IMG/VR virus record: IMGVR_UViG_3300044970_001982
Coordinates: 1-64,000 of that record
Reading direction: 5' to 3' (one strand)
DNA length: 64,000 nucleotides
DNA from: a virus
Position 1 is the stretch's first letter; the number at the start of each line of letters is the position of its first letter. Made by a program: the position numbers and the translations under genes. Of this stretch, positions 1,528-19,490 are shown one piece after another. Below the pieces are notes generated by a model. The model was not told the DNA's origin. It did not search any database and saw only the letters and a program-made list of their open reading frames with translations.

Positions 1528-1618
1528 TTTAACCTCAAACTAATTAAATATAGATTAATATATTACCATAATTCATAAATGAATGCTAGTAATCCATCTT
1601 TTTTTAATGACTTTAGTC

Positions 1619-1628
1619 TTACTATTTT
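1619..1628 (+). promoter_or_regulatory. Candidate late promoter TTACTATTTT (plus strand)
   Basis: This is the only plus-strand copy of the TTACTATWWW element seen. It is identical to the copy in front of the endolysin gene (10403-10412). It ends 21 nt before the ATG at 1649 and lies inside the possible upstream extension that begins at 1583, which argues against that earlier start. Confidence 0.5.
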
Positions 1629-1648
1629 ACACAAGGATGGGAGCCTTT

Positions 1649-3601
1649 ATGCGGAATTTTATTAGTAATTTATTTAGATTATCAACAGTTACCATAGCAG
1701 TTGTTGGATTTTTTGCACCAATGAATTCTGGTGCATCCGCAGAAACTTTAAGCGGACTCAGTGTTGTTGGTTATGAAATCAGTACAAACGCACCGCCAAT
1801 GGTTGACTCCGAAAATCCAAATTGCTCTGCACAGTATGCCAGCATTAATAACTGGCCAGATATATATATGGCTGGCTGTAGAACCAATCAAATAATGCTT
1901 CATTACACCGGGTATATTACAATTCCTACACAGTCTGCACAATTTAGAATATGGTCTGACGATGGTGGTTGGGCTACAATAGGGGATAATTCATTTGGCT
2001 ATTGGGGATTACGTGGCTGTAGTTATACAGAGTCTCCAGTTTATGAATTTACTGCTGGACAATCGGTTCCAATTGATGCGTGGTTTTATGAATGGGGTGG
2101 CGGAGAATGCTTTATATTATGGTGGAACATAGGCGATGGATGGGGGCCAGTTCCTGAATCAGCTTTTACTCAATCAGCTCCAGAAACTACTACAACTACC
2201 ACCACCACCACTACTACAACTATTCCAAAATTTCTTGGAAAACCACAAAATGTTTCGGTAACAGATAGTGGTTCTGGAATTGTTATTTCTTGGAATCCGG
2301 CAGATGACGACACTGGAATTTCTCCAGAACGATACGCAATTTCATGGAGGACAGGACAGTCTGGCTGGGGTATAGCAACAGGAAATGTCGGTGATGAAAA
2401 CGCTTTAAATACACAAGTTACTTTAGACTACCAAATGTTTGAATCAACCGGTGGACTAGATGCCGAGTATAACTTTACCGTAAGAGCTGACAACGATACT
2501 GAAGGTGTTTACTCTCAAGAATCTGATGCTGTTCAATTCATAGTTAATGCTCCACCGCCTCCAACCACAACCACTACAGAACCACCAACAACAGAGCCAC
2601 CAGCTACAGATCCTCCGGCAACCGATCCTCCGGTAACAGAACCGCCAACTCCTGTAACTACTGAACCAGAACCGCCCACTCAGACAACGCAACCTTCAGA
2701 TAACAATACGGATAATACAAATCCACAACCAGAGCCAGAACCTCAACCCGAGCCTGAGCCTCAACCAGAGCCGGAACCTGAAATAGCGCCAGAACCAGAA
2801 CCTGAAATAACTTCTCCTGAACCTGAAATTACGCAGCCAGAAACAAGTGTTCCTGAACCTGAAATTACATTACCTGAAGATATTTCTAATCAAGTAGATG
2901 AAATTTTATCTGGAGATTTGACAGAAGAACAATTTGCTAATGCTGTAGATGAAATATTAACTTCAGCTGATAATGAAGAAGAACTAGTTGCTGCAGCTAC
3001 AGAATTATTGTCTGGAGATCTTTCTACAGAGCAGTTTGCCGAAGTTATTGATCAAGTATTTACAGAGGAATTAAGTGACGAGGCCTTTGCTGAAGTGCTT
3101 GATACTGTTTTTGAAGAACCGCTAACTGATGAAGAATTTACTGCAGTTATTGATGCGGTTTTAGATCAGCCATTGAGTGACGAGCAGTTTGAAGAACTAG
3201 TTGATGTTCTTAGTAGTGACACAGTAACTGATGAGCAAGTACAGGAAGCAGTTGATGCAATTATAGAGAATGGAATAACAGAAGATCAGGCAACTGAGAT
3301 TGCTACAAGTGCAGAGGTACTATCTTCTATCGATGGGGATCAGGCGGCTGAAATCTTTGCTGAAGTTCCCATAGATGAAATAACTGAAGAACAAGCTTTG
3401 GAAATTATTGCTGCGGTACAAGATGCTCCAGAAGAAGTTCGTTCTTCATTTGAAGAAGAAATAAATATATTTGGTTCCGGAAGCCTAAATACCTATGTGC
3501 CTCTTGGTTCCAGCATAAATGTAGGACAAAGAAGAGCAGTTATAGCTGCCGGCGCAGTTATAGCTGTTGCTCCAGTAGCTGGAGCTTCAAGAAGAAGATA
3601 A
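1649..3601 (+). CDS. Secreted PA14/Fn3-like protein with acidic repeats
   Basis: I chose the ATG at 1649 over an in-frame ATG at 1583. It follows an AAGGATGGGAG ribosome site and a late-type promoter, and gives a clean signal peptide (MRNF..., hydrophobic core, cut near SGASA). Residues about 32-180 resemble a PA14-type lectin domain (IWSDDGGWATI). Residues about 197-300 form a fibronectin type III domain. Then come Thr runs, PPATDPP and EPEPQP linkers, and acidic tandem repeats (S/T-D-E-Q/E-F-A-E-V-I/L-D) at about 420-600. The C-terminus has a hydrophobic stretch followed by RRR, like a retention signal. The architecture resembles actinobacterial exported proteins, suggesting a host-derived cargo gene. 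Function on the cell surface or virion is unknown. Confidence 0.8.
   Translation: MRNFISNLFRLSTVTIAVVGFFAPMNSGASAETLSGLSVVGYEISTNAPPMVDSENPNCSAQYASINNWPDIYMAGCRTNQIMLHYTGYITIPTQSAQFRIWSDDGGWATIGDNSFGYWGLRGCSYTESPVYEFTAGQSVPIDAWFYEWGGGECFILWWNIGDGWGPVPESAFTQSAPETTTTTTTTTTTTIPKFLGKPQNVSVTDSGSGIVISWNPADDDTGISPERYAISWRTGQSGWGIATGNVGDENALNTQVTLDYQMFESTGGLDAEYNFTVRADNDTEGVYSQESDAVQFIVNAPPPPTTTTTEPPTTEPPATDPPATDPPVTEPPTPVTTEPEPPTQTTQPSDNNTDNTNPQPEPEPQPEPEPQPEPEPEIAPEPEPEITSPEPEITQPETSVPEPEITLPEDISNQVDEILSGDLTEEQFANAVDEILTSADNEEELVAAATELLSGDLSTEQFAEVIDQVFTEELSDEAFAEVLDTVFEEPLTDEEFTAVIDAVLDQPLSDEQFEELVDVLSSDTVTDEQVQEAVDAIIENGITEDQATEIATSAEVLSSIDGDQAAEIFAEVPIDEITEEQALEIIAAVQDAPEEVRSSFEEEINIFGSGSLNTYVPLGSSINVGQRRAVIAAGAVIAVAPVAGASRRR
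2902..3460 (+). repeat. Degenerate acidic tandem repeat in protein (about 20 residues per unit)
   Basis: At protein level, units of the type L-[ST]-[DE]-E-[QA]-F-A-E-V-[IL]-D-x-V-[FL] recur from 'LSGDLTEEQFANAVDEI' onward. The DNA is diverged between units, so this is an old protein repeat rather than a recent duplication. Each unit looks like a short helix pair. Confidence 0.75.
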
Positions 3602-3618
3602 CAATAGGGAGATTAATA

Positions 3619-3807
3619 ATGAAAAAATTTATGAAGAAATTAATAGCCGCCCTCTATGAGCAGGCTTGGACAATTGCTGGAACAATACTTGTTCTCATAA
3701 CTTTGTCTGGCGACATACAGACATGGGGTATAAAAATTAGTGTTATTACTTTGATAATAGTTCTGTTTGGCGCTGTAATCAAAAAAGAAATGGATGATTC
3801 TGATTGA
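3619..3807 (+). CDS. Small membrane protein, two transmembrane helices
   Basis: A 62-residue protein with a basic N-terminus (MKKFMKKL), two hydrophobic segments (about 17-32 and 36-54) and a charged tail KKEMDDSD. GGGAG ribosome site 8 nt before the ATG. It starts 17 nt after the secreted-protein gene and is probably cotranscribed with it from the motif at 1619. Size and topology fit a holin-like protein or a partner for export of the upstream product, but I do not recognise a family. Confidence 0.7.
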   Translation: MKKFMKKLIAALYEQAWTIAGTILVLITLSGDIQTWGIKISVITLIIVLFGAVIKKEMDDSD

Positions 3808-7394: not shown

Positions 7395-7409
7395 TTATAT
7401 CACCTTTAG

Positions 7410-7501
7410 CGGAGAGGGTGGGATTTGAACCCACGGATGCATTCAACATACATCGACATCTTAGCAGGATGTTCCATTCAACCGAACTCTGGCACCTCTC
7501 C
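7410..7501 (-). tRNA. tRNA-Ser (anticodon GCU)
   Basis: The minus strand folds into a class II tRNA. The acceptor stem is GGAGAGG / CCTCTCC with G discriminator. The anticodon stem ACATC / GATGT encloses loop CTGCTAA with anticodon GCT at 7463-7465. A long variable arm has GATGTAT pairing with ATGCATC, and the T arm is GTGGG TTCAAAT CCCAC. The 3' CCA is not encoded. It lies between the exonuclease and GT32 genes. It reads AGC/AGU codons, which are frequent in the AT-rich structural genes. Confidence 0.93.
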
Positions 7502-11491: not shown

Positions 11492-12734
11492 TTTCATTCA
11501 TCCTTTTATTAAATATAATAATTAAATATCCGACAAAGCATAGGAATACGCCTGCATAAAATATAGTAACGCTATTTCCAGTATTTGGTAGTTGACCTAT
11601 TGGAACCGTTGTCTCTGGCATTGAGGGTGGTGCCACTGTTGTTTGCGGAATGTCTACTACAGTTGTAGTTGACTCATTATCGTTTTCTGGACTTGGTTCG
11701 GGTGTAGTATCGATAACTGGTTCTGTAGTTGTGGTTGTACTTTCTTCAATTGGTGGATCTGTAACTGGAGGATCAGTTGCCGGGGGATCCGTAGCTGGTG
11801 GATCTGTAGCCGGGGGATCTGTAGCTGGAGGATCGGTTGCCGGGGGATCAGTAGGGGTTGGTGGTACTGTTGGTGCGTCTGGATTATTTGGTGGAACAGC
11901 CCCGAAAGATTCGCCATTTTTAGTAGTTCCACCTGGCTGACTATCAATAAGCAAAACTGGCGATAAAGCCGTATCATCAAGATTAAAAACAGCAAATCCT
12001 AATTTATAATCACCAGTTACAGAAACCTGATATGTAGATACCTGCCATCCTGTAGAGCCATATGTCCCAGTTGAATAGTCTCCAGTCCCAGGATTTGTAA
12101 AACCAAGCAGGGCATATCTTTGTGTCTGGTTGTTAACGGTAATTGTTGCAGATGAACTCGAATCTACTGGTGTTAAAGACGTTATGGAACCATCGTTAAA
12201 TGGCACGTAGTCAGTTCCTATATAGTTCCATGACATGGTATATGTAACGCCAGCACTTAATGTCACATTTCTAGTAATCCATGCGGCATCTGTGGGATTA
12301 CCGCTGCCCCAACCACTTGCTGATGCCTGAGATGTCATAATACCTCTTAAGAATGTATTTTCAGCGCTTGACAAACCAAGTGCTAATGTAGCCACATCGA
12401 AGTTTGCTTCATTAGCCGGTTGAAGTGCTGCAGCGTGTGAACCATACGGCGAAAACTGCCAAATAGTAGCGGGAGTTGCTGGCTGATAATACTGAGAACC
12501 AGGTGTTCCCACTTGACTTCCTGGTGGTGCATTAAAAGTTACAGTTCCATTTATTATGGAAACACCAGTTCCACTACCGGTAATTGTTGAGGTCATATTT
12601 TCAGTCTGCGCACCCTTCTCCCATCCAGTAAAGTCTCCAGATTCAAAGTTTGCATTAGATACACTATCAGCTGATACGATGCTCGGCAGCATAAATAAAC
12701 CTAACCCAAATAAAATATAAAAAAGCTTTTTCAT
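11481..12734 (-). CDS. Secreted LPXTG (LPNTG) sortase-anchored surface protein
   Basis: A 417-residue protein with a signal peptide (MKKLFYILFGLGLFMLPSIVSA, cut near SADS). A beta-rich ectodomain follows (NANFESGDFTGWEKG..., about 25-270), like carbohydrate-binding jelly-roll domains. Next are six PPATDPP-type repeats and a Thr-rich linker. The C-terminus is a complete cell-wall sorting signal: LPNTG, hydrophobic helix (IFYAGVFLCFVGYLIIIF) and positive tail NKRMNENGE. It should be anchored to Gram-positive peptidoglycan by host sortase. It has its own late-type promoter and follows a terminator. Possible roles are superinfection exclusion, altered cell adhesion, or host-derived cargo. Confidence 0.85.
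   Translation of the reverse strand: MKKLFYILFGLGLFMLPSIVSADSVSNANFESGDFTGWEKGAQTENMTSTITGSGTGVSIINGTVTFNAPPGSQVGTPGSQYYQPATPATIWQFSPYGSHAAALQPANEANFDVATLALGLSSAENTFLRGIMTSQASASGWGSGNPTDAAWITRNVTLSAGVTYTMSWNYIGTDYVPFNDGSITSLTPVDSSSSATITVNNQTQRYALLGFTNPGTGDYSTGTYGSTGWQVSTYQVSVTGDYKLGFAVFNLDDTALSPVLLIDSQPGGTTKNGESFGAVPPNNPDAPTVPPTPTDPPATDPPATDPPATDPPATDPPATDPPVTDPPIEESTTTTTEPVIDTTPEPSPENDNESTTTVVDIPQTTVAPPSMPETTVPIGQLPNTGNSVTIFYAGVFLCFVGYLIIIFNKRMNENGE
11752..11850 (-). repeat. 15-bp tandem repeats encoding PPATD units
   Basis: About six to seven near-identical 15-bp units encode (P-P-A/V-T-D)n in the LPXTG protein. They form the rigid wall-spanning linker. A similar PPATDPP stretch occurs in the plus-strand secreted protein at about 2600-2645. 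Confidence 0.85.
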
Positions 12735-12764
12735 TTCTCCCTCATTCTATAAATTGTCCGCAAT

Positions 12765-12774
12765 TATATAGTAA
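12765..12774 (-). promoter_or_regulatory. Candidate late promoter TTACTATATA (LPXTG gene)
   Basis: Minus-strand TTACTATATA, 31 nt upstream of the ATG at 12734 and immediately downstream of the terminator at 12785-12815, where a new promoter is expected. Confidence 0.65.
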
Positions 12775-12784
12775 TGTTTACAAT

Positions 12785-12815
12785 AAAAAAGAGAGACGCA
12801 TTTCTGCGCCTCTCT
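12785..12815 (-). terminator. Rho-independent terminator of the tiny-protein operon
   Basis: On the minus strand AGAGAGGCGCA, GAAA loop, TGCGTCTCTCT (11-bp stem with one G-T pair), followed by a T run. It ends the 14097-12839 operon. Confidence 0.9.
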
Positions 12816-12838
12816 TAGTAAATTATATAAATATTATA

Positions 12839-12958
12839 CTACTTTTTCTTTTTCTTTTTAAGAATAGCAGATTGTATAAAAGGTGGTAGTTTTTTCTGTG
12901 CGGCAGTTAGTCCATTTGCAGGCTTTTTAGCTGCAGCTTTTTTCTTTTTCATTGCCAT
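12839..12958 (-). CDS. Tiny Lys-rich protein, LPPFIQ type (39 aa)
   Basis: MAMKKKKAAAKKPANGL followed by TAAQKKLPPFIQSAIL and six C-terminal lysines. The TAAQKKLPP.IQ.AIL core has the look of a conserved small phage protein. ATG at 12958 with a GGA site; ends just before the terminator. The charge suggests nucleic-acid contact; function unknown. Confidence 0.65.
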   Translation of the reverse strand: MAMKKKKAAAKKPANGLTAAQKKLPPFIQSAILKKKKKK

Positions 12959-12996
12959 ATTTTTTCCAATCTTAAACTAAGAATGAGAAATTAATC

Positions 12997-13107
12997 TCAG
13001 TACATTTTCTTTCCACCCATTTTCTTGGAACCCATCTTCTTAGAGCCCATCTTCTTAGATCCCATTTTCTTGGAACCCATCTTCTTTTTACCCATGTGAC
13101 CAGCCAT
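12997..13107 (-). CDS. Tiny MGSKK-repeat peptide (36 aa)
   Basis: MAGHMGKKK followed by four perfect or near-perfect MGSKK pentapeptides and an MGGKKMY end. It has the best ribosome site in the area (AAGGAGGTG, 6 nt before the ATG), so strong translation is expected. Coding is supported by that site, by its fit between neighbours in a tight operon, and by varied codons across repeats. No known function; strongly basic and Met-rich. Confidence 0.65.
   Translation of the reverse strand: MAGHMGKKKMGSKKMGSKKMGSKKMGSKKMGGKKMY
13003..13095 (-). repeat. 15-bp tandem repeats encoding MGSKK
   Basis: Five to six 15-bp units with small synonymous differences (TCC/TCT/TCT, AAG/AAA) make up most of the tiny gene at 12997-13107. 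Confidence 0.85.
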
Positions 13108-13109
13108 AA

Positions 13110-13370
13110 TTACACCTCCTTTTTTTTCTTAGCTTCGCTAGATTTCTTGTAGTGCCACATCATGTGATCTTGCATTTGATCATCTACCTTATCAACCTGT
13201 TCGTCAACATGATCTATTTTATGATGTAGATGAAGTATTTCATCTTTAACATCACCTAACATTGTTGCAACTACGTTGTGATCATTTTTATTTTCTGTTC
13301 TACTTTTCTGAACAAGCGCTGCGAGTATGCCCCCAACAGCAGCTATTGTTGCAACAATGATAGCTTCCAC
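13110..13370 (-). CDS. Membrane protein with N-terminal TM helix and coiled coil
   Basis: An 86-residue protein starting at a GTG (MEAIIVATIAAVGGILAALVQKSR: one transmembrane helix). It is followed by a heptad-patterned segment with many Asp/His (HHKIDHVDEQVDKVDDQMQ) and a KKKKEV end. The one-helix plus coiled-coil layout is common among small actinobacteriophage membrane proteins near lysis genes. Role in lysis or membrane tethering is inferred. GTGGTGA ribosome site overlaps the upstream stop region. Confidence 0.7.
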   Translation of the reverse strand: MEAIIVATIAAVGGILAALVQKSRTENKNDHNVVATMLGDVKDEILHLHHKIDHVDEQVDKVDDQMQDHMMWHYKKSSEAKKKKEV

Positions 13371-14464: not shown

Positions 14465-14785
14465 TCATTTGCCTTGTTGTGAATCTTTAATGAGCATGTA
14501 TCGCTCACCCGTTTCTTTTGAAGCTAGTGAAAAACCGTAGGCTACAGCTTCTTCTACTGCAGTCTTTAAGGCTTCTTTATCCTCAAAAGAAACTCCATGT
14601 AATGGGATTGTTACTCCCGCATAGACATCAATATTTTCAAAGTTTCCAATATTGATTTTTCTATTTACCCCACATATTACTATGGGAGAACTTGCTAGCG
14701 TAATTTCATTGCTCAAAAGGTTCACCACCTGATCTAAAGGAGAATCTATTGATTGCTCCATTGCTGTTTTTGATATTTTAGGCAT
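14465..14785 (-). CDS. Hypothetical protein following dNMP kinase
   Basis: A 106-residue protein with a helical start (MEQSIDSPLDQVVNLLSNEI), a central beta pattern (RKINIGNFENIDVYAGVTIPL) and a helical end. The K-I-N-x-G-N-F-E-N-I-x-V segment recurs in my memory of small phage proteins of unknown function. ATG overlaps the kinase stop by 8 nt. No family name can be given. Confidence 0.75.
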   Translation of the reverse strand: MPKISKTAMEQSIDSPLDQVVNLLSNEITLASSPIVICGVNRKINIGNFENIDVYAGVTIPLHGVSFEDKEALKTAVEEAVAYGFSLASKETGERYMLIKDSQQGK

Positions 14786-15572
14786 ATACGTCTGTAAATG
14801 ATTGTATGAATTTTATTGTTTCTTTAGTTTGTTCTTCGATAGAAAGTCCATCAGTATTAATTATAGCAGAACAATAGTTTTTTACCAAGTCCATTTCTAA
14901 TTCAGACTTATGATTTGACTGCTCTGCTGTCATTAATCTACCATCTCGTTTCATCATTCTTTCTGACCTAACCTCGTCAGAAGCTTCGTAGCATACAACT
15001 ATACCATTTGGCTGCTTGGCTATCATGGCTGCTTCATTTTCAAATCTTACGTCAGAAACTATAATACACAATGGTGTTTCGTTTTCTGAATATTCTTGCG
15101 TTGACATATACTCACGAAACATTTGTGATGTTTTTATTATTGCCCATCTAGCAAAACACTGAGGGTCATACTCTCTGCAGAGATCCCCAGCTTTTTGGAG
15201 AAAAGATCTTGGCTTTATTCCTTCTGGCTCAATTGGAAGATTATATATATCCTTAACTAATTTGCAAAAATCATCATATGAAGGTATTGCGCCAAGTGCA
15301 TTTCTGCCATAAATATCATATACTACTTCATGTATAGAAAATAATTGTCTATCTTTTTGTCTTTGCCCAAGGCTATTCTTTCTTATTGATGCCAGTTCAT
15401 ATAAAGGTAGTGCAAAGAATATATGATCCCATGCAATATTATCCGTAACTGGTTTATTGATTTGAGCTTTCGGAACTATGCTTTCAGCAACAGATGTTTT
15501 ACCTGTTGCAGCTTTCCCTGCTAATCCCAATATAATTGGGTAATCTGGATAGAATTTTTTCTTATCAATCAT
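14778..15572 (-). CDS. Deoxynucleoside monophosphate kinase (T4 gp1-like P-loop kinase)
   Basis: A 264-residue protein with a Walker A loop GLAGKAATGKTS (16-27), a SDVRFENEAAMI motif typical of phage dNMP kinases and adenylate-kinase-like enzymes, and an Arg-rich lid region (RSERMMKRDGR). It would phosphorylate dNMPs to dNDPs, feeding DNA synthesis with the RNR, ThyX and deaminase further upstream. The ATG at 15572 lacks a ribosome site but sits 7 nt after TGATATAAT, so a leaderless transcript is possible. Confidence 0.85.
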   Translation of the reverse strand: MIDKKKFYPDYPIILGLAGKAATGKTSVAESIVPKAQINKPVTDNIAWDHIFFALPLYELASIRKNSLGQRQKDRQLFSIHEVVYDIYGRNALGAIPSYDDFCKLVKDIYNLPIEPEGIKPRSFLQKAGDLCREYDPQCFARWAIIKTSQMFREYMSTQEYSENETPLCIIVSDVRFENEAAMIAKQPNGIVVCYEASDEVRSERMMKRDGRLMTAEQSNHKSELEMDLVKNYCSAIINTDGLSIEEQTKETIKFIQSFTDVYA

Positions 15573-16397: not shown

Positions 16398-16913
16398 TTA
16401 ATATGTACTGAAATCTGAATCAAGATAAGAACCCTTATCTTCACGTAGGGCAGCTATCTGCATCGACTGCACCTTATCCATTAATTTTCTGGCAGATTCA
16501 GATGCTATTCTTGCAGCAGACTCCATAGACTCCGCAAGGCTTACTACTGCATCACAAGTCGTCCAAGCCAAGTATTCGTCTTCTGCAGCTTTCATAGCGT
16601 TTGCTTCTCGCTCTGCGTCGTTTTTTCCTACCATATTATACTTGTACACTTTTTTATATCGTGCTTCAAGTATTTTATATTGGGCTCTTGCCATACCAGC
16701 AAACCTAGAAGCTCTACCATAAACGTTGGATGATCTGGCAACTAGAGATGCTATCTTGTCTATACCCAAGTCGATAACATCGGTTTCTGGTATTTCTATA
16801 AAATATTTGTAGTTAGATTCCATGTCTGCATATGCATCTAGCACCTCTTGAATTTGCGGTCCAAGAAAGTCTTTCAGAAGTTCTTGCAGTTTATAGAATG
16901 ACTGATCTATCAT
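16398..16913 (-). CDS. Helical protein, possibly a UvsY-like recombination mediator
   Basis: A 171-residue, almost all-helical protein. Residues about 60-145 (SRFAGMARAQYKILEARYKKVYKYN ... NAMKAAEDEYLAWTTCDAVVSLAESMESAARI) have the spacing of basic, Tyr and acidic positions seen in T4 UvsY-like proteins, which load recombinase on ssDNA. No recombinase gene is in the window, so this is only a suggestion. It overlaps the sigma-like gene by 4 nt (ATGA). Confidence 0.55.
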   Translation of the reverse strand: MIDQSFYKLQELLKDFLGPQIQEVLDAYADMESNYKYFIEIPETDVIDLGIDKIASLVARSSNVYGRASRFAGMARAQYKILEARYKKVYKYNMVGKNDAEREANAMKAAEDEYLAWTTCDAVVSLAESMESAARIASESARKLMDKVQSMQIAALREDKGSYLDSDFSTY

Positions 16914-17770
16914 TTGTTCTCCATTTTAAACAAAAAAGAATATTCTTCTATATCCTCTTCTTTTATAATGTTTTTTACCTTTTCTTTAATCTTTGTTAAA
17001 TGTTCTCTGATTGTATTTGGATGCTCATTAATTGTTTGAGATATTTGACTGGATCTTTTTCCGTCTACGTATCTCCACTTTAGCAACTGCCTTTCTTGAA
17101 CCGTCAATTGATCAAATGGTGATTGAGTTTTTTCACCAAGAACCCAAAACTGATCTATTTTATTAGTCGCTAACATTTGCTCCATGCTGATTTCTATTGG
17201 ATCTGCCTTAAATCCTACCACATAATCCTCGTCACTTTCATCATTTGTTGCTTCATCATCTAAAAGTGGGAATGTTTTTCTTCCCAACTGATCTATTAAA
17301 AATGTATCAACATTCTTTTTTAGTAAATAAAAAAAGTAACTGTACAAAAATCCACTAAATGGTATTGGCCCTTTAGCGGAATCTTTTCTTTCATATCTAT
17401 TTATGCACTGAAAGAATGTCATATGGACTGTTTGCCTGATGTCTTCTTCATCTCCATATCTCTTTGTCATATAATGTATGCCACGCATAGTTTCATTTAC
17501 GGCCTTCATTGTATTGTTATTTACTTTGTTTTTCATCAGCGAGAATCTCACAAAAGGATCTTTAATAAATAAAGATATAAACCTTCTTATGTCATAATCG
17601 GAAAGGTTATATTTTCCATAATACAATAAAGAAATATATTTTGTAAGAAAGTTGCTAAAAACTTTTAGTATCTCTTCTTGAGAAGATCTAATACCTTTTT
17701 TAGTTTCAGCTATTAGCCTCTGCATTTCCTCTTCTTCTAGTGCGTAATACTGCTCTTTATAACTACTCAT
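16910..17770 (-). CDS. Sigma-70-like transcription factor
   Basis: A 286-residue protein. The middle (YGDEEDIRQTVHMTFFQCINRYERKDSAKG, then PFSGFLYSYFFYLLKK) resembles sigma region 2 (core binding and -10 recognition). The C-terminal part (LTVQERQLLKWRYVDGKRSSQISQTINEHPNTIREHLTKI) is a sigma region 4/LuxR-type helix-turn-helix. An acidic linker separates them. It would redirect host RNA polymerase, plausibly to the TTACTATWWW elements. Overlaps both neighbours by 4 nt (ATGA). Confidence 0.78.
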   Translation of the reverse strand: MSSYKEQYYALEEEEMQRLIAETKKGIRSSQEEILKVFSNFLTKYISLLYYGKYNLSDYDIRRFISLFIKDPFVRFSLMKNKVNNNTMKAVNETMRGIHYMTKRYGDEEDIRQTVHMTFFQCINRYERKDSAKGPIPFSGFLYSYFFYLLKKNVDTFLIDQLGRKTFPLLDDEATNDESDEDYVVGFKADPIEISMEQMLATNKIDQFWVLGEKTQSPFDQLTVQERQLLKWRYVDGKRSSQISQTINEHPNTIREHLTKIKEKVKNIIKEEDIEEYSFLFKMENK

Positions 17771-18333
17771 CTTTTTCCTTCCCAGTTAACTATATAGCTA
17801 CTGTAATAATCTCTTATGTCTTCGTAATAAACTATAAATGGTACTTCTATTTCTTTCATAAAATTTTTAGCGTCATTTGAATATTTGCTTATGACGCATG
17901 TTAGGTTCTTAAACTCCTCGGGGTAATATCTTTTAAATCTTTTTAATTTTATCTTACTTTTATCGTCTAAATAACCTTTAATTTCAATCCATAAATTGTT
18001 TCTGGATAATAAAAAATCTGGAGTGTAACCTTTTGTTCCCCTTTTAACTGGGAAAGAAAAAACTGTAGGCTCAAATTGAAAATCTATTTTGTAGATATTT
18101 AATATTCTTACAAAATTAGCTTCCCAACTAGATCTAACATTCATCTTAATGTCTTCTCTGTATCCAGTTTTTGTGTATTGATAGGCGTTACCCTTTTTCC
18201 TGACTATTATGGCGTCGTTTTCCAATATCTCTTTTTCAATACTTTTGTTTCTTATATTGTTTAAGTTTGGATGTTTTTTCAAAGAAGATTTTTCCAAAAA
18301 AAAGTCTTCTGGCTTGACAACATGTGCTTCCAT
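17767..18333 (-). CDS. PD-(D/E)XK nuclease-like protein
   Basis: I use the ATG at 18333 (MEAHVVKPEDFF; AAAGGAT site 8 nt upstream), not the longer hydrophobic extension running into the promoter region. The 188-residue protein has RSSWEANFVRIL and the nuclease core YTPDFLLSRNNLWIEIKGY (D, then E-x-K), as in small phage endonucleases of the restriction/TnsA/T7 endo I-like superfamily. Function in recombination or host DNA degradation is inferred. First gene of the run down to the sigma factor. Confidence 0.78.
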   Translation of the reverse strand: MEAHVVKPEDFFLEKSSLKKHPNLNNIRNKSIEKEILENDAIIVRKKGNAYQYTKTGYREDIKMNVRSSWEANFVRILNIYKIDFQFEPTVFSFPVKRGTKGYTPDFLLSRNNLWIEIKGYLDDKSKIKLKRFKRYYPEEFKNLTCVISKYSNDAKNFMKEIEVPFIVYYEDIRDYYSSYIVNWEGKR

Positions 18334-18369
18334 TGTGATATCCTTTATACCTGAAAAATATATTATCTT

Positions 18370-18375
18370 ATTATA
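18370..18375 (-). promoter_or_regulatory. Candidate -10 box (TATAAT) for the minus-strand run
   Basis: Minus-strand GTGTATAATAAG lies 37 nt before the ATG at 18333. The TTGTGA half of the dyad at 18401-18406 is too far (25 bp) for a normal -35, so this assignment is weak. Confidence 0.3.
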
Positions 18376-18400
18376 CACCAAAAAATAAAAAAAAGAAAAT

Positions 18401-18418
18401 TCACAACAAAGGTTGTGA
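18401..18418. promoter_or_regulatory. Operator-like inverted repeat in divergent promoter region
   Basis: TCACAAC-AAAG-GTTGTGA, a perfect 7-bp dyad. Its right half contains the -35 box (TTGTGA) of the plus-strand promoter, so a dimeric regulator bound here would block that promoter. No U tract follows, so it is not a terminator. Confidence 0.5.
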
Positions 18419-18441
18419 GTAGACACAAAAGGCAGTATAAT
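18413..18441 (+). promoter_or_regulatory. Sigma70-type promoter, TTGTGA-N17-TATAAT
   Basis: -35 TTGTGA at 18413-18418, 17-bp spacer, -10 TATAAT at 18436-18441. The predicted start at about 18448-18449 coincides with the ATG at 18449, giving a leaderless mRNA. Confidence 0.8.
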
Positions 18442-18448
18442 AGAAGAC

Positions 18449-18625
18449 ATGAACACACTAACAACAATAATCAATAGCATCAATCAGAACATCAACGAAG
18501 AGATCATTGACGATCTAACCTCTAATCTTGGCTTTAACCATGGAACAGCGGTTAAGATGGTTACTGAGTTCGAGGATTTTGATCTTTGGCTTTCTGCCGA
18601 AAAGAATCCAGTTCAGAATTTCTGA
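18449..18625 (+). CDS. Isolated plus-strand leaderless gene, 58-aa protein of unknown function
   Basis: MNTLTTIINSINQNINEEI followed by IDDLTSNLGFNHGTAVKMV and an acidic end with FEDFDLWLSAEKNPVQNF. It lies alone on the plus strand inside a long minus-strand block, with a near-consensus promoter ending 7 nt before the ATG, no ribosome site, and its own strong terminator. Base composition is less AT-rich than the neighbours, with many C-ending codons. The structure suggests a strongly expressed immediate-early gene, perhaps acting on the host; this is inference. Confidence 0.75.
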   Translation: MNTLTTIINSINQNINEEIIDDLTSNLGFNHGTAVKMVTEFEDFDLWLSAEKNPVQNF

Positions 18626-18652
18626 TTCTTTCTACTGATACTTAAAGAAATT

Positions 18653-18675
18653 GGACCGGGAAACCGGTCCTTTTT
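18653..18675 (+). terminator. Rho-independent terminator of the plus-strand gene
   Basis: GGACCGG-GAAA-CCGGTCC followed by TTTTT: a 7-bp GC-rich stem with a stable GAAA tetraloop and T tract, 27 nt after the stop codon. Confidence 0.93.
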
Positions 18676-18677
18676 CT

Positions 18678-19490
18678 TTATCTAAAACTATTGTTCTTAT
18701 TTCTAAAAACACCTGTTCCACAAGCGCCAGAAGCTGCGTGATCACAATAGCTACATGCTCTGACATTTGAGGTTGGCAGGAAGTTTTTGTCTTCAATAAT
18801 ATTATTAATTGAACTAATTAGCTTAGTCTTTACATTATCTATATCGTCTTTAGAAAAAAGATGACCCTTCTTTCTACCTGATCTTAGATAATAAAGCTCT
18901 GCGTATATTTCTTTTTCTGGAAATATATTGTGCATCGCTAGTGCATATATCCCTAGCTGTAAATTGTTTGGAACCTCTTTTGCTGAGACTTCCCATTTGC
19001 CAGTTTTGTAATCAGTTATATTTACACGATCACCTATAATATCTACTCTATCTATGAAGCCTATGATTCTATAAACTCCAATAATAAAATCGAAAGCCAT
19101 TTCTTTTTCATAGATATGAAATTCCTTATCGGAATGTTGATCATAGAACTCATCTATAATTACAGAACCAACCGAAATAAGCTCAGATGGTATTAAACTA
19201 TTCGGATCCCAAATAGGAATGTTTTTGTCATACTCATCTTTTAATTCAGATAAATCTAAAACCTTATCATTATCTAATATATTTTCCAATACAGCGTGCA
19301 CTATATTACCGAGAACGGCTGGAGCATTAAACTGTCTAGGCTCCTTTAATATATATGAATAAAAGTATTTAGCTGGACACTGATTATATGTGTCTATTCT
19401 AGAGTATGAAAAATCTACTAAAGCTAATTTTTCTAAATCTGTAAGATTATTATAATTTTTAATTAAAACTACACTCAAAATATTCCTCAA
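18678..19490 (-). CDS. RecB/Cas4-like exonuclease with Fe-S cysteines
   Basis: A 270-residue protein. PD-(D/E)XK core: H65, GFIDRVD (D147), ITDYKTGK (D160, K162) and QLGIY (Q178). Four cysteines (C38, C246, C249, C257) in the Cas4/AddB arrangement suggest a 4Fe-4S cluster. It would act as a ssDNA exonuclease in replication-linked recombination. Start is a TTG overlapping the upstream TGA (TTGA); a second TTG at 19478 has a better AGG site. Not linked to any CRISPR array. Confidence 0.85.
   Translation of the reverse strand: MRNILSVVLIKNYNNLTDLEKLALVDFSYSRIDTYNQCPAKYFYSYILKEPRQFNAPAVLGNIVHAVLENILDNDKVLDLSELKDEYDKNIPIWDPNSLIPSELISVGSVIIDEFYDQHSDKEFHIYEKEMAFDFIIGVYRIIGFIDRVDIIGDRVNITDYKTGKWEVSAKEVPNNLQLGIYALAMHNIFPEKEIYAELYYLRSGRKKGHLFSKDDIDNVKTKLISSINNIIEDKNFLPTSNVRACSYCDHAASGACGTGVFRNKNNSFR

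Follow-up and report, generated by a model that had tools for sequence, protein, structure and literature searches.

p58, a conserved 58-codon gene with a predicted leaderless promoter in a group of uncultivated viruses

The leaderless messenger RNA of the lambda cI gene is made from the promoter PRM, and a dyad adjoins this promoter. Besides cI, a documented leaderless phage message (PMC9031893), leaderless SigA-type divergent promoters, PL1 and PR2, have been predicted in the Cluster O mycobacteriophages of the Corndog group (PMC4351075). What is known of leaderless phage genes comes mostly from predictions in single genomes or close clusters. Leaderless messenger RNAs are in wide use in Actinobacteria (PMC3160421, PMC4633059), as a preliminary description of the locus reported here had stated; leaderless genes average 19% there, and in the leaderless TANNNT class the first T of the -10 box precedes the start codon by approximately 12-13 nt (PMC3160421). 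In mycobacteria, a 5'-terminal ATG or GTG is enough for leaderless translation, and a screen revealed no preference beyond the start codon (PMC4633059); CA repeats after the start codon are reported to enhance leaderless translation, a result obtained with E. coli (PMC9031893).

The DNA analyzed here, termed the window, comprises 64,000 nucleotides, that is, positions 1 to 64,000 of IMG/VR virus record IMGVR_UViG_3300044970_001982, which has 109,100 bases and is itself partial. The preliminary description, made from the sequence alone, had pointed to a 58-codon plus-strand gene, here called p58, that opposes a long block of minus-strand genes and is preceded by TTGTGA-N17-TATAAT, with 7 nt between this promoter and the ATG and no ribosome site. 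The coordinates of both gene and promoter boxes were confirmed, and the locus is composed of the following features.

16910-17770, minus strand: sigma factor-like gene (phrog_351, E 9.5e-9; under the Pfam cut-off for Sigma70_r4_2)
17767-18333, minus strand: first gene of the divergent unit, endonuclease / Holliday junction resolvase family (phrog_9019, E 1.8e-17)
18370-18375, minus strand: -10 box TATAAT of the divergent promoter of the nuclease-sigma unit, leadered, with ribosome site AAAGGAT
18401-18418, no strand assigned: operator-like dyad TCACAAC-AAAG-GTTGTGA, overlapping the -35 box of p58
18413-18418, plus strand: -35 box TTGTGA, its TTG invariant in 14 distinct upstream sequences
18436-18441, plus strand: -10 box TATAAT, 17 nt from the -35 box and 7 nt before the ATG
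18448-18449, plus strand: predicted transcription start, with an invariant C as -1 and the A of the ATG as +1
18449-18625, plus strand: p58, 58-codon gene, stop codon included in the coordinates (about 50 contigs, low dN/dS, conserved core)
18653-18675, plus strand: intrinsic terminator with a 7-bp G+C-rich stem and a T tract, GGACCGG-GAAA-CCGGTCC-TTTTT
18678-19472, minus strand: PD-(D/E)XK exonuclease, convergent neighbour of p58

This arrangement is reminiscent of PL1/PR2 of Cluster O, in that divergent promoters of probable actinophages are placed in an AT-rich intergenic region and the predicted +1 is the first base of the start codon (PMC4351075). In contrast to Cluster O, one promoter of the p58 locus would be leaderless while its divergent partner is leadered and has a ribosome site, and the p58 dyad is found at one site instead of 34 copies. 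With lambda cI, p58 would share a 5'-terminal AUG, here predicted, and a dyad beside the promoter of a phage gene, albeit without a recognisable DNA-binding domain. Like the small leaderless ORFs of mycobacteria, it encodes a short protein with the start codon predicted at +1 in a compatible type of host (PMC4633059); unlike these, it is viral, sequence-conserved and monocistronic, and has its own terminator. New are the co-varying dyad over the -35 box, the conserved leadered promoter lying back to back, on the other strand, with the predicted leaderless one, and a clade of relatives (L070, L071, L077) with Shine-Dalgarno-like sites.

Relatives of p58 were collected from IMG/VR by two single-protein scans and two alignment scans. 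The gene is encoded on approximately 50 contigs, with identity down to 52%, and dN/dS, where estimable, is mostly 0.03-0.11 (0.19 in one pair), synonymous sites being often saturated. Judged from these sequences, p58 is a real and conserved protein-coding gene, carried by a group of uncultivated viruses; the preliminary description would have taken absence of the frame from close relatives as a refutation, and when these were searched the frame was present. INPHARED gave no match, either in a near search or by tblastn with p58, and a divergent member used as query returned chance matches only (E 10). In 20 of the 20 loci compared, p58 occupies an identical position among replication genes and is flanked by the same two minus-strand units, one comprising the endonuclease and the sigma factor-like gene, the other extending from the exonuclease to DnaE. 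This places p58 in the core of the phage group; it is not a private insertion, and the earlier idea of a private cassette had to be abandoned. The gene is less AT-rich than its surroundings, as had been noted (GC 0.38 versus 0.29-0.33 in the flanks), and its GC3 is 0.44, compared with 0.18-0.32 for 20 other genes. The remaining genes of the record lie almost entirely on the minus strand: four of the 108 genes called mechanically in the 109-kb record are plus-strand genes, one of them overlapping a tRNA. Apart from p58, plausible plus-strand genes of the record are limited to two frames at window positions 1583-3807, one of about 650-672 amino acids and one of 62 amino acids.

Taken by itself, the promoter match of p58 is not significant, with 68 such sites in 18 kb versus 73.8 ± 9.8 in shuffles; its significance derives from conservation across relatives. 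In the last 45 nt before the ATG, the only bases invariant in the 14 distinct upstream sequences are TTG at -36 to -34, the T, A, A, and T at -13, -12, -10, and -8, and C at -1. This is the footprint of a -35/-10 promoter with 17-bp spacing, the start of which would coincide with the A of the ATG, the C at -1 providing a pyrimidine directly before a purine start. The footprint is shared by relatives whose protein identity falls to about 59%. The -10 box occurs in the variants TATACT, TACACT, TACAAT, and TAGGAT, while its distance from the ATG is N7 in the 14 distinct upstream sequences as well as in L155 and L158, which retain TTGCCA-N17-TAGGAT-N7-ATG, and N6 in L068. In the window, TATAAT begins at -13, fitting the leaderless TANNNT class (PMC3160421). 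No Shine-Dalgarno site was found in the transcribed part of p58 in the window or in most relatives; the nearest similar string, AAAAGG (18427-18432), precedes the -10 box and would therefore not be transcribed. Over its first 50 nt, the message is predicted to be unstructured and is A+C-rich. The conserved boxes at a fixed distance from the ATG support the leaderless character claimed at the outset, and the 5' end of the p58 messenger RNA very probably coincides with the start codon. A genome-wide count in the 193-kb relatives gave no strong excess of -10 boxes before ATG (89 versus 72 in the reversed control).

Downstream, the p58 terminator begins 27 nt after the stop codon (predicted fold -15 kcal/mol, z -3.4). 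Its stems differ by lineage yet stay paired (GGACCGG/CCGGTCC, GGCCGA/TCGGCC, GGCCAG/CTGGCC, and others), and the GC-rich terminator attributed to the gene is thus kept through compensatory changes, as compared by eye; RNAalifold, run on an alignment that was out of register, found no structure.

Two other accounts of the transcript were weighed. If transcription started further upstream and yielded a leader, the TATAAT near the ATG would not be the start signal; such a course would agree with the Shine-Dalgarno-like sites that precede most genes of the p58 phage and that stand at normal spacing before p58 in L070, L071, and L077. It is, however, very unlikely in view of the lack of such sites in most relatives, the fixed N7 spacing, and the invariance of the -35/-10 bases and of C at -1. 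Even less credible is that the RNA itself, and not the p58 peptide, is the product. The p58 transcript does fold better than shuffles (z -4.3), and in 14 of 15 sequences the coding part has z scores from -1 to -4 relative to codon shuffles, but selection acts on p58 at the protein level, L069 is devoid of excess structure (z 0.3), and Rfam yielded no match there.

The preferred reading, a leaderless messenger RNA coding for p58, would not hold for every relative. Shine-Dalgarno-like sites precede p58 in L070, L071/L075, and L077, and the orthologues at L070:3377-3477, L071:772-872, and L077:4488-4588 combine such sites with the lack of a -10 box near the ATG. Leaderless initiation is therefore not essential to p58, and these orthologues would represent a change of initiation mode between clades.

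The dyad, with the -35 box formed by its right arm, has its axis approximately 39.5 nt before the p58 ATG; in several relatives it has the form TGCAA-N6-TTGCA. Its arms co-vary, with 91% of cells paired and a covariation of 0.373 versus 0.239 in shuffles (reached in 0 of 500), as counted on nine sequences only, whose kinship can inflate the shuffle control. Slid controls gave much lower covariation. No further copy is present elsewhere in the same genome, and ten relatives contain one exact match only, at the same promoter. The dyad is probably the binding site of a dimeric regulator. In the divergent promoter region (window 18334-18400, minus strand), the -10 box is TATAAT in 15 of 16 loci and TATACT in one, and a single intergenic stretch would hold the leaderless promoter of p58 and the leadered promoter of the nuclease-sigma unit back to back.

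The dyad might instead be an RNA hairpin ending minus-strand transcription just before the divergent promoter, as there is a hairpin followed by a T-rich stretch on that strand. This is considered unlikely, since the stem is weak, the dyad axis is fixed relative to the plus-strand promoter, and the changes in L035, L037, L068, and L069 preserve pairing, as G-U, on the plus strand only, with A-C mismatches arising on the minus strand. Still less probable is p58 as a Cro-like autoregulator that binds the dyad, shuts off the promoter from which it is expressed, and acts as a switch for the nuclease-sigma unit. The co-varying dyad flanked by divergent promoters and the position of p58 as the only gene of its unit would fit; however, the protein is strongly acidic, no helix-turn-helix domain of the Cro/cI type was detected (at E < 0.001, Pfam, PHROG, and NCBIfam gave no match), though a new helix-turn-helix type is conceivable, no match to another DNA-binding family was obtained, and four sequences with p58 (L043, L051, L017, and L055) lack the left dyad arm.

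The p58 protein has a pI of 4.05 and a net charge of about -7 (about -7 to -9 among the members for which it was calculated), and a VTEFEDFDL core is conserved in most members. Structure prediction, as proposed in the preliminary description, resulted in a two-helix hairpin of moderate confidence (mean pLDDT 78). Searches of PHROGs, Pfam, NCBIfam, and PADLOC returned nothing significant, and those of the PDB (by sequence and fold) and BFVD nothing at E 0.001; within these libraries the protein family is new. Matches to an IHF helix and to calmodulin were at chance level and were discarded. An LGF....A motif and matches to RuvA at E 0.02-0.04 in single members offer a weak lead to the UBA / RuvA domain III, which is a three-helix bundle with an LGF loop, whereas the p58 model has two helices. 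C-ending codons (11/23) are only suggestive as a sign of high expression, and the codon use bears no likeness to that of structural genes. For p58, proposed at the outset as a strongly expressed early effector, the best inference for its role would be binding of another protein during takeover or regulation.

With regard to the host, WhiB, which is used as an actinophage marker (PMC10202952), exceeds the family cut-off in both 193-kb relatives (L083 and L084); it was not found in the window's own, partial record. Because WhiB is present in both of these relatives, an actinobacterial host, as originally assumed, is likely, and the p58 viruses probably infect Actinobacteria. GTDB contigs searched with the p58 family and with a virion protein gave no match and, hence, no direct host link.

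Overall, a monocistronic leaderless actinophage gene, driven by a host sigma factor, regulated through the dyad, and specifying a small, early protein-binding product, is favoured as the whole scenario, if by a modest degree of belief. Host RNA polymerase with the housekeeping sigma factor would start at the A of the p58 ATG, ribosomes would load directly on the 5'-terminal AUG, and transcription would halt at the terminator before reaching the convergent exonuclease-DnaE unit. A dimeric regulator would probably occupy the dyad that overlaps the -35 box, and in this way the p58 promoter may be coupled to the nuclease-sigma unit. Early in infection, the acidic helical hairpin would most likely bind a protein of the transcription or replication machinery, either of the host or of the phage. 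It is a bold and very doubtful extension that p58 founds a family of phage takeover proteins, its leaderless message being kept for translation when Shine-Dalgarno-led initiation is altered during infection, with L070, L071, and L077 as a natural switch of initiation mode at an orthologous gene. Together, the leaderless p58 promoter, the leadered promoter on the opposite strand, and the clade with Shine-Dalgarno-led initiation would offer a natural series in which to study what makes a phage retain a leaderless gene.

p58 is not the sole candidate leaderless gene of the window. The kinase-like gene at 14778-15572 (minus strand, start at 15572) lacks a ribosome site and carries TATAAT at a distance of 7 nt from its ATG. 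In most relatives TATAAT is retained there, 6-8 nt from the start and frequently in the form TGCTATAAT; the feature is absent before the orthologues in L070, L075, and L077. On this pattern the gene is a candidate second leaderless gene. Elsewhere in the window, a 376-base gap between minus-strand genes (12734-13110) contains a strong terminator-like hairpin of 12 pairs (12816-12789), and a single tRNA-Ser (gct) is encoded at 7409-7501 on the minus strand.
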